Part shown: positions 25,754 through 38,866 of the stretch, piece by piece
Position numbering within the stretch: the first letter of the stretch is position 1
Layout of the letters: each line of letters begins with the position of its first letter
NCBI RefSeq assembly: GCF_001546855.1
Contig: NZ_KQ958161.1
Location: 65,045 to 129,044 of the forward strand
Length of the DNA stretch: 64,000 bases
DNA from: Megasphaera sp. MJR8396C
Lineage (GTDB): Bacteria > Bacillota > Negativicutes > Veillonellales > Megasphaeraceae
Direction: 5' to 3'
Position numbers and translations under genes: made by a program
The notes under the pieces: model-generated
Database searches by the model: none
What the model saw: only the letters and a program-made list of their open reading frames with translations
Told to the model about the DNA's origin: nothing

Positions 25754-26599
25754 TTATTTCAAGATGATGTTGTCGATGAGGCGGGTCTTACCGATGCGAA
25801 CGGCAATGGCCAACAGACTTTCGCCGGAAACAGTTTCAATCGGTTCGAGGTCGGGGAAGGAGAAGAGGTCGACATAATCGATGGAGGCCATCGGTTCCGC
25901 TTCAATTTCAGCCGTGACGATGACTTTCAGTTTTTCTACATCTTTTTCGCCGCCGTCATAGGCAGTCTGGGCCTTTTTCAGGCTCCGGGAGAGGACCAGG
26001 GCCGCTTCTTTTTCGGAATCGGACATATAGGCGTTGCGCGAACTGCGAGCAAGACCACTTTCTTCACGGACGATGGGGACCATGTTGATATGGACGGGCA
26101 GGTTGAGGTCGCTGACAAAACGGCGGACGACGACGACCTGCTGAGCGTCTTTTTGACCGAAGAAGGCTTCATCGGCACCAGTAATATTAATCAATTTGGT
26201 GACGACGGTGGCTACGCCGCGGAAGTGAATCGGCCGCTGAGCGCCGCAGAGCTTATGCGTAATGTCGCCTTCGACGTTGACATAGGTGCAGTAGCCCTTA
26301 GGATACATTTCCGACGGTTCCGGATGGAAGACGGCATCGACGCCGACGCTTTCGAGTTTCCGGCAGTCTTCTTCGAAACGGCGCGGATAGGCATCGTAAT
26401 CTTCATTAGGACCAAACTGAGTCGGATTGACAAAGACCGAAGCGATGACGACGTCACAAGCCGCTTTTGCCGTCCGCATGAGCGTCAGATGACCTTCATG
26501 GAGGGCCCCCATGGTCGGGACCAAACCGATGACCTTACCGGCCTTCTTTTGTTCACGGGAAAAAGCCTGCATTTCTTTGACAGTACGGAAAATTTTCAT
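25754..26599 (-). CDS. panC: pantothenate synthetase
   Basis: ATP-dependent ligase joining pantoate and beta-alanine to pantothenate, 281 residues, the standard length. PTMGALHEGHLTLM is the HIGH-type nucleotide motif; FFGQKDAQQVVVVRRFVSDL and ARSSRNAYMS (KMSKS-like) follow. It comes 28 bases after a BASS-family transporter gene on the same strand. panB, panD and panE are not in the window. The pairing suggests that pantoate or ketopantoate is imported rather than fully made. Confidence 0.96.
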   Translation of the reverse strand: MKIFRTVKEMQAFSREQKKAGKVIGLVPTMGALHEGHLTLMRTAKAACDVVIASVFVNPTQFGPNEDYDAYPRRFEEDCRKLESVGVDAVFHPEPSEMYPKGYCTYVNVEGDITHKLCGAQRPIHFRGVATVVTKLINITGADEAFFGQKDAQQVVVVRRFVSDLNLPVHINMVPIVREESGLARSSRNAYMSDSEKEAALVLSRSLKKAQTAYDGGEKDVEKLKVIVTAEIEAEPMASIDYVDLFSFPDLEPIETVSGESLLAIAVRIGKTRLIDNIILK

Positions 26600-26627: not shown

Positions 26628-27590
26628 TTATGCCGCATGGGCAGTCGATTCTTTTACACTTGTCCCTTCACCCTTTTCATCGCGGCGAGAGAAGTAATTG
26701 GCGATGAGGGACCCTGAAATATTGTGCCAGACGCTGAAAATAGCACCGGGAATGGCCGCTGCCGGATTGAAGTACATGACGGCCAGGGATGCCGCCATCC
26801 CGGAATTTTGCATCCCCACTTCGATCGCCACGGTCCGGGATTTTCGCGAATCGAGGCGAAACAGTTTGGCCATGAGATAGCCGAGAGCCAGACCGAAGCC
26901 ATTGTGCAGGATGACGATAGCCGCCATCAAGAGGCCGACATCAAAGAGGCGGGACGCACTGAGGGAGACGACGCAGCCAACGAGGATGACGATGGTGACG
27001 ACAGACACGACGGGCATGGCCGGCAGCACCCGTTCGACGCCGCGGGCAAAGAAATGGTGAACCCCTAAGCCCAGCATGACCGGGACCAGGACCATTTGCA
27101 CGATAGAAATCATCATCGACAAGAAAGAAACATGAATCCAGGCGCCAGCCAAGAACCAGGTCAGGGCCGGCGTGACGATGGGAGCCAATAACGTCGTCGC
27201 CATGGTCATCGATACCGACAAGGCGACATCGCCCTTAGCTAAATAGGAAATGACGTTTGATGCCGTTCCGCCCGGGCAGGTGCCTACCAGGATGACACCA
27301 ATGGCCAGTTCCGGCGGCAGGGCAAAAATCCGGACCAGTCCCCAGGCCACCAAAGGCATGATCAAGAACTGAGCAAAGACGCCGATGAGGACCTCCCACG
27401 GCCGTTTAAAAACGGTCTTAAAGTCGGCTACGGTCAAGGTCATGCCCATGCCGAACATGACGATCCCCAAGAGCCAGCCGACATAGGGTGCTGCCCACTG
27501 CAGCGTCCAGGGCCAGATAGCTCCGACGACGCCGATGAGGACGACGAAGACGGCCATGTTGCTGACCAGAAAATCACAACACTTTTTCAA
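26628..27590 (-). CDS. bile acid:sodium symporter (BASS) family transporter, candidate pantoate/ketopantoate importer
   Basis: Inner-membrane protein of 320 residues with about ten membrane helices. Family stretches are FGMGMTLTVADF, VGTCPGGTASNVISYLAKGDVALSVSMT and EVGMQNSGMAASLA. I start at the TTG at 27590 because AGGAGGT lies ten bases upstream; longer readings run through the leader terminator. Salmonella PanS, a BASS protein, takes up ketopantoate, and here the gene is directly ahead of panC, so the same kind of cargo is likely. A keto acid of another pathway or a different organic anion is the alternative. Confidence 0.85.
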   Translation of the reverse strand: MKKCCDFLVSNMAVFVVLIGVVGAIWPWTLQWAAPYVGWLLGIVMFGMGMTLTVADFKTVFKRPWEVLIGVFAQFLIMPLVAWGLVRIFALPPELAIGVILVGTCPGGTASNVISYLAKGDVALSVSMTMATTLLAPIVTPALTWFLAGAWIHVSFLSMMISIVQMVLVPVMLGLGVHHFFARGVERVLPAMPVVSVVTIVILVGCVVSLSASRLFDVGLLMAAIVILHNGFGLALGYLMAKLFRLDSRKSRTVAIEVGMQNSGMAASLAVMYFNPAAAIPGAIFSVWHNISGSLIANYFSRRDEKGEGTSVKESTAHAA

Positions 27591-27862
27591 TAAATCTATA
27601 CCTCCTGTCTTAATTTTGGGGCAAAAGGACATAAAAAAACACCCTTCAGCGCGGACTGAAAGGTGTGCGTATCTGCAAACGTCACGTAGGGCCGACATAT
27701 ATCGTAAAAAAACACGCCTATTGCCGTGCCGCCATACCATGATGAGCAATCCTTCCTGTCTCGGTCTGAATCAGATCCAAGCAGATAATGAATCGATAAG
27801 TAGACATAAAAAAAGTATAACTCACATTGCGTGATGCTATCTTTTGCCTCGGCCGTATCATA
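27591..27862 (-). promoter_or_regulatory. long 5' leader of the BASS-panC operon with three hairpin/T7 modules
   Basis: Transcription from the promoter at 27857-27885 would give a leader of about 260 nt. It contains three runs of seven T, each preceded by a hairpin: 27808-27840 (bulged stem), 27706-27728 (short, weak) and 27633-27666 (strong). The last is a full terminator about 30 bases before the ribosome site, which suggests attenuation. A further bulged stem with TCTG/CAGA lies between the first two. I do not recognise a known riboswitch with certainty. Confidence 0.55.
27633..27666 (-). terminator. attenuator-type terminator before the BASS gene
   Basis: In minus direction ACACCTTTCAG pairs with CTGAAGGGTGT over 11 bp with one G-U pair, loop TCCGCG, followed by T7. 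It lies between promoter and start codon. Confidence 0.8.
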
Positions 27863-37321: not shown

Positions 37322-37360
37322 AAGAAAGAAGGAAACTGTCACTAAAGAGACAATTTCCTT
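37322..37360 (-). terminator. terminator of the OFA transporter gene
   Basis: In minus direction AAGGAAATTGTC pairs with GACAGTTTCCTT (one mismatch) and is followed by CTTTCTTTTT. Confidence 0.7.
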
Positions 37361-37412
37361 CCATAGAAAACGGATCAATCGATTCGAAAAATGTTCAGGT
37401 TTAGGAAAGCAC

Positions 37413-38660
37413 TTACATACCGGCACTCCGAGACGGCTGTCCTGCCGTTTCAATGCCGTGACGGGTCTGATATTTCAAGAAAGCCATCAGGACCAAGGCG
37501 ACGACGAAGGCTCCGACGAAGAAGTACAGCGTCGCAGCGTAGCTGTTGGTCGTTTCCTTGATGATCGATACCAGGACCGGACCGGCGACGCCGGCAGCGC
37601 CCCAGGCCGTCAGTACCCGGCCGTGAATGGCACTGAGGTACTTGGTTCCGAAGAGATCGCTGAGGTAAGCCGGCATGCAGGAGAAACCGCCGCCGTAGCA
37701 GGTAATGATGAGCAAGAGTAAAATCTGGAAGCTGAAAGCACTGCTTACATTAGCCAACTGCCAGAAAGCGAGGATTTCAATGGCGAAGAATAAGACATAC
37801 GTCGACGAACGGCCGATATAGTCAGAAACGGTCGCCCAGGCGATGCGGCCGGCACCGTTCAAAAGGCCGATGAGACCGACCATGGAAGCGGCGGCCATGG
37901 GAGACATGCCGACGACGTCCTGAGCCATGGGAGAGGCGACAGCCAGGAGGGCGATGCCGCAGGTAATATTGGTAAAGAAGAGCCACCAGATGGCATAGAA
38001 CTGCCAGGTCTTCATCGCACCGCGAACGGTAAACTGAGGCTGGGCATCGGCGTATTCAACGGTCGATTTCTTTTTAGCTTCAGCAGCCGCATCTTCTTCC
38101 GGAGGAGCTAAGTAAAGGGAAGACGCTGTCATGATGACCATGTAGACGATACCGAGAATGATGAAATTGGCGACCAGGCCAAAGGACTGAACCAGAATCT
38201 GCATGGCAGGACCGGCAATCAGGCTGGCAAAGCCAAAACCCATGATGGCCAGGCCCGTTGCGAAGCCGCGATTTTCAGGGAACCACTTGACCAGCGTCGA
38301 TACCGGCGTAATATATCCCGTTCCCAGGCCGATACCGCCAATGACGCCATAGAACAGGTAGAGCATGGGCAGGCTGTGTACATAAAGAGCCGCTGCCGTG
38401 CCGAACATCGCCAATACAAAGAAAGACATCGATAAGAGACCCGATTTGCGGGGACCGATCTTCTGAACGAAGCTTCCTAAGAAACCTGCCGATAAACCGA
38501 GGAATAAAATAGCTAACGAAAAAGTCCATGTCGTTTCCTGCAGGCTGAAGCCCATGGCTTCCATGATCGGCTTGGTCAAGACGCTCCAAGCGTAGACACT
38601 GCCGATACAGATGTGGAGGCCGATGGCCGATAAGGCGATGAGCCAGCGATTTCTTTTCAT
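37413..38660 (-). CDS. OFA-family (oxalate/formate antiporter-like) MFS transporter
   Basis: Major-facilitator protein of 415 residues with twelve helices. The start LIALSAIGLHICIGSVYAWSVLTKPI and the segment GGIGLGTGYITPVSTLVKWFPENRGFATGLAIMGFG are characteristic of the OFA branch. Other members exchange oxalate and formate or move related small carboxylates. The gene lies behind a ZTP riboswitch, which senses one-carbon/folate shortage, so formate is an attractive cargo. That is inference; the cargo is not readable from sequence. Confidence 0.88.
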   Translation of the reverse strand: MKRNRWLIALSAIGLHICIGSVYAWSVLTKPIMEAMGFSLQETTWTFSLAILFLGLSAGFLGSFVQKIGPRKSGLLSMSFFVLAMFGTAAALYVHSLPMLYLFYGVIGGIGLGTGYITPVSTLVKWFPENRGFATGLAIMGFGFASLIAGPAMQILVQSFGLVANFIILGIVYMVIMTASSLYLAPPEEDAAAEAKKKSTVEYADAQPQFTVRGAMKTWQFYAIWWLFFTNITCGIALLAVASPMAQDVVGMSPMAAASMVGLIGLLNGAGRIAWATVSDYIGRSSTYVLFFAIEILAFWQLANVSSAFSFQILLLLIITCYGGGFSCMPAYLSDLFGTKYLSAIHGRVLTAWGAAGVAGPVLVSIIKETTNSYAATLYFFVGAFVVALVLMAFLKYQTRHGIETAGQPSRSAGM

Positions 38661-38698: not shown

Positions 38699-38766
38699 AA
38701 AAAAATATGCCGACCCCCGGGCCCAAGAATATGTTAGTAGCATACACTTGCCCAGACGGTCGGCAT
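38699..38766 (-). terminator. riboswitch-controlled terminator before the OFA gene
   Basis: In minus direction ATGCCGACC (38758-38766) pairs with GGTCGGCAT (38707-38715), extended by GGGC/GCCC, and is followed by A plus seven T. The 5' arm contains the conserved 3' strand of the ZTP aptamer, so the two structures exclude each other. Confidence 0.85.
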
Positions 38767-38830
38767 GAAATGACTTCGTACAGTTCACGTGGTTGCTCCA
38801 CTTGATTCCGTCAGTCCTGTACGAATCTGC
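38749..38830 (-). ncRNA. ZTP (pfl-type) riboswitch aptamer
   Basis: Read on the minus strand, a 9-bp stem TTCGTACAG / CTGTACGAA (38817-38825 and 38775-38783) encloses GACTGACGGAA and a small hairpin GTGG AGCAA CCAC. After a linker comes CCGTCTGGGCA, where CCGTC can pair with GACGG to form the pseudoknot. This matches the pfl/ZTP architecture, in which the conserved 3' element is C-C-G-x-C-T-G-G-G-C-A. ZTP binding would hold the pseudoknot, prevent the overlapping terminator and switch the transporter on. Confidence 0.85.
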
Positions 38831-38837
38831 TGATGTT

Positions 38838-38866
38838 ATTATACGAATATTGATTTATTTTGTCAA
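38838..38866 (-). promoter_or_regulatory. promoter of the riboswitch-OFA transcript
   Basis: On the minus strand TTGACA (38861-38866), a 17-base spacer and TATAAT (38838-38843). Both hexamers are perfect. Transcription would begin near 38831, just before the aptamer. Confidence 0.85.

Follow-up and report, generated by a model that had tools for sequence, protein, structure and literature searches.

ZTP riboswitches of the Rfam family RF01750 usually precede purH, fhs, pfl, glyA or folD, and a terminator that competes with the 3' strand of the aptamer is common, though not universal, among them. Where ZTP riboswitches with this layout have been characterised, as in Thermosinus carboxydivorans, they switch transcription ON: the pseudoknot is stabilised by the ligand, and the terminator is thereby blocked (PMC7337938, PMC2864571). 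Among carboxylate transporters, SfMCT (6g9x, 6hcl) is a proton-coupled L-lactate transporter and OxlT (8hpk) an oxalate:formate antiporter, that is, an exchanger, for which residue K355 is essential in the handling of oxalate (PMC10070484). In the window, the whole stretch of 64,000 nucleotides of Megasphaera DNA analysed here, an RF01750 riboswitch with such a competing terminator precedes instead the gene of a transporter that has the fold of SfMCT and OxlT (Table 1). We propose, with a probability of roughly 0.55, that the ZTP riboswitch controls a monocistronic importer of small monocarboxylates whose cargo is most likely formate.

Table 1. Features of the riboswitch-transporter unit, in window coordinates
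Feature	Position	Strand	Evidence
Sigma-70-type promoter, TTGACA-17 nt-TATAAT	38838..38866	(-)	12/12 consensus match
ZMP/ZTP riboswitch aptamer (pfl motif)	38743..38828	(-)	RF01750, 66.5 bits
Intrinsic terminator, reuses aptamer P3/pseudoknot strand as 5' arm	38699..38765	(-)	fold -32.5 kcal/mol, z -5.96
MFS monocarboxylate transporter, 415 aa, riboswitch target	37413..38660	(-)	NF049980 SfMCT 391 bits
Terminator-like hairpin after transporter	37327..37362	(-)	14-pair stem, T-rich tail

The initial annotation had read the interval 38699-38866 as a perfect promoter followed by a pfl/ZTP aptamer whose last element doubles as the 5' arm of a terminator, and the three elements fit this interval. 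The promoter is indeed perfect, and the scanner used to find it, run at a loose threshold (9/12), expects 0.6 sites by chance. An Rfam scan aligned the aptamer with the full length of the covariance model (positions 1-86, E 1.4e-8), with a score above the gathering score of 39 bits. Both strands of the pseudoknot are present in the leader, GACGG on one side and its partner CCGUC with the conserved P3 loop CCGUCUGGGC on the other, and the strands and the loop are invariant among 32 transporter leaders, over which the aptamer has 28 invariant columns. The folding stability of the aptamer segment alone is ordinary (z 0.06), so the evidence for the aptamer lies in the covariance model and in conservation. 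As a member of RF01750 the leader RNA is unremarkable, and it is predicted to bind the ligand.

The conserved 3' strand of the aptamer, GACCGUCUGGGC, doubles as the 5' arm of a long hairpin; this arm, TGCCGACCGTCTGGGCAAG, is the P3/pseudoknot end of the aptamer, and the hairpin ends in a tail of seven U (T7 at 38699-38705). None of 200 shuffles of the RNA of 38765-38699 (-) was equally stable, which bears out the terminator of the initial annotation; a simple terminator scan, with a loop limit of 8 nt, had overlooked it. When hairpins were anchored on the U-run with the aptamer strand as the 5' arm, an overlapping terminator was found in 84 of the 89 homologous leaders with the core motif and in 23% of downstream-shuffled sequences, while a fixed 75-nt fold, which fails at the long Megasphaera stems, gave 59/87. 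Because the aptamer constrains the sequence of the 5' arm, two-sided base-pair changes are not expected in this terminator. The leader resembles the ZTP riboswitches of T. carboxydivorans and of Clostridium beijerinckii pfl in the sequence and fold of its aptamer, in the overlapping terminator and in the predicted ON logic (PMC2864571, PMC7337938). By analogy with the characterised switches, from which the direction is taken, the leader is predicted to turn transcription ON when the ligand is present.

The transporter gene starts downstream of the leader terminator, with its start codon at 38660, and its product shares 96% identity with proteins from Megasphaera massiliensis and Megasphaera sp. 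UBA1696. The protein passes the cut-off of the NCBIfam model NF049980 (SfMCT, L-lactate transporter; cut-off 320 bits) and fails those of TIGR00890 (oxalate/formate; 193.8 bits, cut-off 374.85) and TIGR04259 (OxlT; 152.9 bits, cut-off 335). The closest solved sequence is SfMCT 6g9x (E 1.1e-33), followed by OxlT (E 1.2e-27), and an AlphaFold model of the transporter (mean pLDDT 76) fits both folds. In an alignment of 88 ZTP-linked proteins, the carboxylate site formed by Y116, N268 and R272 (Y119, N276 and R280 of SfMCT) is invariant, and SfMCT residues Y331 and F335 are likewise conserved in 88/88. The equivalents of OxlT Arg272, Asn268 and Tyr124 are also kept, whereas the position of K355 is taken by Trp353, a Trp in all 88 proteins. 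These features suggest a site with one cation that would take a small monocarboxylate and exclude oxalate. The target had been described as an OFA-family transporter: its nature as a carboxylate transporter stands, but the OFA label is loose at best, with both curated cut-offs missed by far and no Lys at the position on which OxlT depends for oxalate (PMC10070484). Judged from sequence, by the curated models and the two-cation rule, the transporter is a distant SfMCT-type carrier outside the OFA family.

We then considered how widely riboswitch and transporter are paired. Within the order, 41 of 61 genomes have a close homologue of the transporter, and each of the 41 homologues is preceded, on its own strand and at a distance of 35-153 nt, by a ZTP aptamer. 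Beyond the window's own family, ZTP riboswitches in the order have no target other than the transporter, save for a match of 33.3 bits, below the cut-off, before a pfl gene in genome G033; apart from this weak match, no ZTP riboswitch was detected in the order genomes outside that family that lack the transporter. Among 300 genomes of the class, the aptamer was present at 83 of 90 determinable loci with further homologues, outside the order, of at least 52% identity, 31 by coordinates and 52 by running the order-built model on fetched loci, which brings the total for the Negativicutes to 124 of 131 homologues. The seven homologues of the class without an aptamer include two second copies (L099, L101), the other copy in the genome having one. 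Upstream aptamers were found neither for 11 distant homologues (38-43% identity) nor for six homologues from outside the class (54-57% identity). On the protein tree the ZTP label forms one cluster, with 3 changes (at least 2 of them forced) versus 17 with shuffled labels. The pattern is most simply explained by a single early gain of the riboswitch within the Negativicutes and a few losses. The pairing of riboswitch and transporter is real, conserved and biologically informative.

Two genomes of family f28 have tandem ZTP aptamers before the transporter (L142, 1310-1391 and 1434-1514 (-); L092, 1297-1377 and 1416-1496 (-)), and genome G166 has another tandem ZTP pair elsewhere; five tandem ZTP cases have been described, mostly with folate genes (PMC9481103). 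The homologue at L068 (G029:C2:130956-132158) contains one in-frame TGA inside the match, possibly a frameshift, a sequencing error or a sign of a decayed gene.

The genome from which the window comes (69 contigs, 99.9% complete) has two further ZTP switches, one before fhs, the gene of formate-THF ligase, which lies 59 nt behind its switch, and the other before the gene of AICAR transformylase (NF005492, 714 bits, cut-off 415). Fhs is present in 60 of the 61 genomes of the order. No protein of the window's genome exceeds the cut-off for canonical PflB (TIGR01255). Its two PFL-like proteins, also below the canonical cut-off and so rejected as canonical Pfl, are non-canonical glycyl radical enzymes (L153, 101-2713 (-); L154, 66-2429 (-)), one of which passes the broad PFL2-3 subfamily cut-off while the other is nearest to CutC, below the cut-off. 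FocA was likewise rejected as a formate channel of this genome, since its two FNT-family channels (L158, 1725-2495; L159, 565-1428) fall under the FocA cut-offs; their best match is NirC, again below the cut-off, and one of them, directly behind asrC (sulfite reductase C), is perhaps a hydrosulfide or nitrite channel. The window itself contains a second structured RNA that precedes a transporter, a pan motif at 27752-27843 (-) (RF01749, 55.7 bits, gathering score 36.2), behind which lie a PanS-like pantoate transporter gene (26628-27749, below the PanS cut-off) and panC (25754-26599).

The class-wide pairing, 124 of 131 homologues with a shortage-sensing riboswitch, makes the transporter a strong predicted candidate for a formate importer. 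The three ZTP targets of the window's genome could form one formate-to-purine route of importer, Fhs and AICAR transformylase. A shortage of 10-formyl-tetrahydrofolate would let ZMP/ZTP build up and bind the aptamer during transcription of the leader; the ligand-bound pseudoknot would hold the CCGUCUGGGC strand, block the terminator and allow the transporter mRNA to be completed. With no ligand, the CCGUCUGGGC strand would pair downstream and transcription would stop. The transporter, working presumably in the direction of import, would supply the cell with formate; Fhs, itself behind a ZTP switch, would attach this formate to THF, and the ZTP-controlled AICAR transformylase would use the 10-formyl-THF with ZMP to give FAICAR, thereby removing the signal.

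Pyruvate formate-lyase genes are a known type of ZTP riboswitch target, and their distribution was compared with that of the transporter. Canonical Pfl was not above the cut-off in 84 of 127 transporter-bearing genomes. In family f18, which contains Phascolarctobacterium, 26 genomes have the transporter without canonical pfl, none has both, 10 have only pfl and 22 neither (Fisher p 0.0013, shared ancestry ignored). In family f4, canonical pfl is also present in 17 of the 18 transporter-bearing genomes, and in family f14 the two are uncorrelated. The idea that the transporter simply stands in for Pfl fits f18 and mostly f1, but not f4, with both, or f14, with no relation; we therefore rejected it in this plain form and count it as partial support only. 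A ZTP-controlled pfl occurs in at least 39 Negativicutes genomes (for example G015:C66, G171:C18, G191:C129 and G215:C117), and among the 39 listed, 7 have a ZTP-controlled transporter (p 0.0008, shared ancestry ignored); G171, G191 and G215 carry a relative of the transporter without the ZTP riboswitch and have pfl under ZTP control instead. These statistics are suggestive only. Formate import is plausible, and the regulon logic and the distribution relative to pfl give it indirect comparative support. That ZTP-controlled formate importers are a hitherto unassigned family, ancestral to the Negativicutes, which replaces or complements pyruvate formate-lyase as a source of formate for 10-formyl-THF and purines and would let many gut Negativicutes use formate made by neighbours, is a tentative proposal to which we give slightly less than even odds.

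Formate import is the best hypothesis for the cargo, favoured by a modest margin over its negation, with L-lactate or pyruvate next. Against formate we count the co-occurrence of transporter and pfl in f4, the missing correlation in f14, the curated lactate name and the behaviour of SfMCT, which gave a response to linear unsubstituted monocarboxylates only when these had at least three carbons (PMC6573034). We also count the physiology of Megasphaera NM10, closely related and equipped with the riboswitch-transporter unit (L145): it reportedly excretes formate on glucose (PMC3832451), so that a need for formate is not obvious there.

If the cargo were L-lactate or pyruvate, ZTP control would serve to supply pyruvate for one-carbon routes that produce formate or are linked to serine, or would simply mark growth arrest. 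The NF049980 score, with homologues L162 and L164 passing the cut-off too, and the use of lactate by Megasphaera (PMC3832451) speak for this reading, which we nevertheless regard as unlikely, if the most serious of the alternatives. Identity to SfMCT, with which the ZTP-controlled transporter shares the fold and the Tyr/Asn/Arg site, is only about 26%, and in each of the 88 ZTP-linked proteins the SfMCT pocket residues L145, F359 and C362 are replaced by F, L and W, so the SfMCT name does not settle the cargo; in SfMCT, F359A abolished and C362A reduced transport (PMC6573034). Moreover, formate from lactate-derived pyruvate needs Pfl, and it is mainly by way of this enzyme, not found in those 84 of 127 genomes with the transporter, that a lactate or pyruvate carrier would aid the supply of 10-formyl-THF.

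Less probable again is some other small monocarboxylate with a role in one-carbon supply, for instance glyoxylate, glycolate or acetate, or an exchange of formate for another acid. One conserved Arg carboxylate site with no second OxlT-type cation speaks for this reading, as does OxlT itself being an exchanger (PMC10070484), but no genomic link to a glyoxylate, glycolate or acetate pathway was seen, and the neighbours of the transporter vary between families, being fru genes in the Megasphaeraceae and an aldolase with an unrelated large protein in L162. The riboswitch-transporter unit looks monocistronic, because the hairpin at 37362-37327 is followed by a separate promoter-like site (37231-37203, 11/12) of the next gene downstream, of DeoR type. 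That the riboswitch truly serves the downstream fructose genes (DeoR regulator, 1-phosphofructokinase, PTS), with the transporter as a passenger, is very improbable: these genes lie on the same strand as the transporter, but the hairpin and promoter-like site come before them and the riboswitch-transporter pair has other neighbours in other families.

The riboswitch class is known, and the novelty of its association with this transporter is unproven: the literature searched, which did not include the 2015 discovery paper or its supplement, contains no report of this transporter as a ZTP target or of a ZTP riboswitch associated with a formate or lactate transporter. The cargo of a transporter is hard to read from its sequence, and a riboswitch that senses a single defined shortage, conserved in front of one transporter, offers a strong and cheap functional clue. 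If the cargo is formate, the ZTP-controlled importer would give gut Negativicutes a regulated use of their neighbours' formate for purine synthesis, which would bear on cross-feeding.
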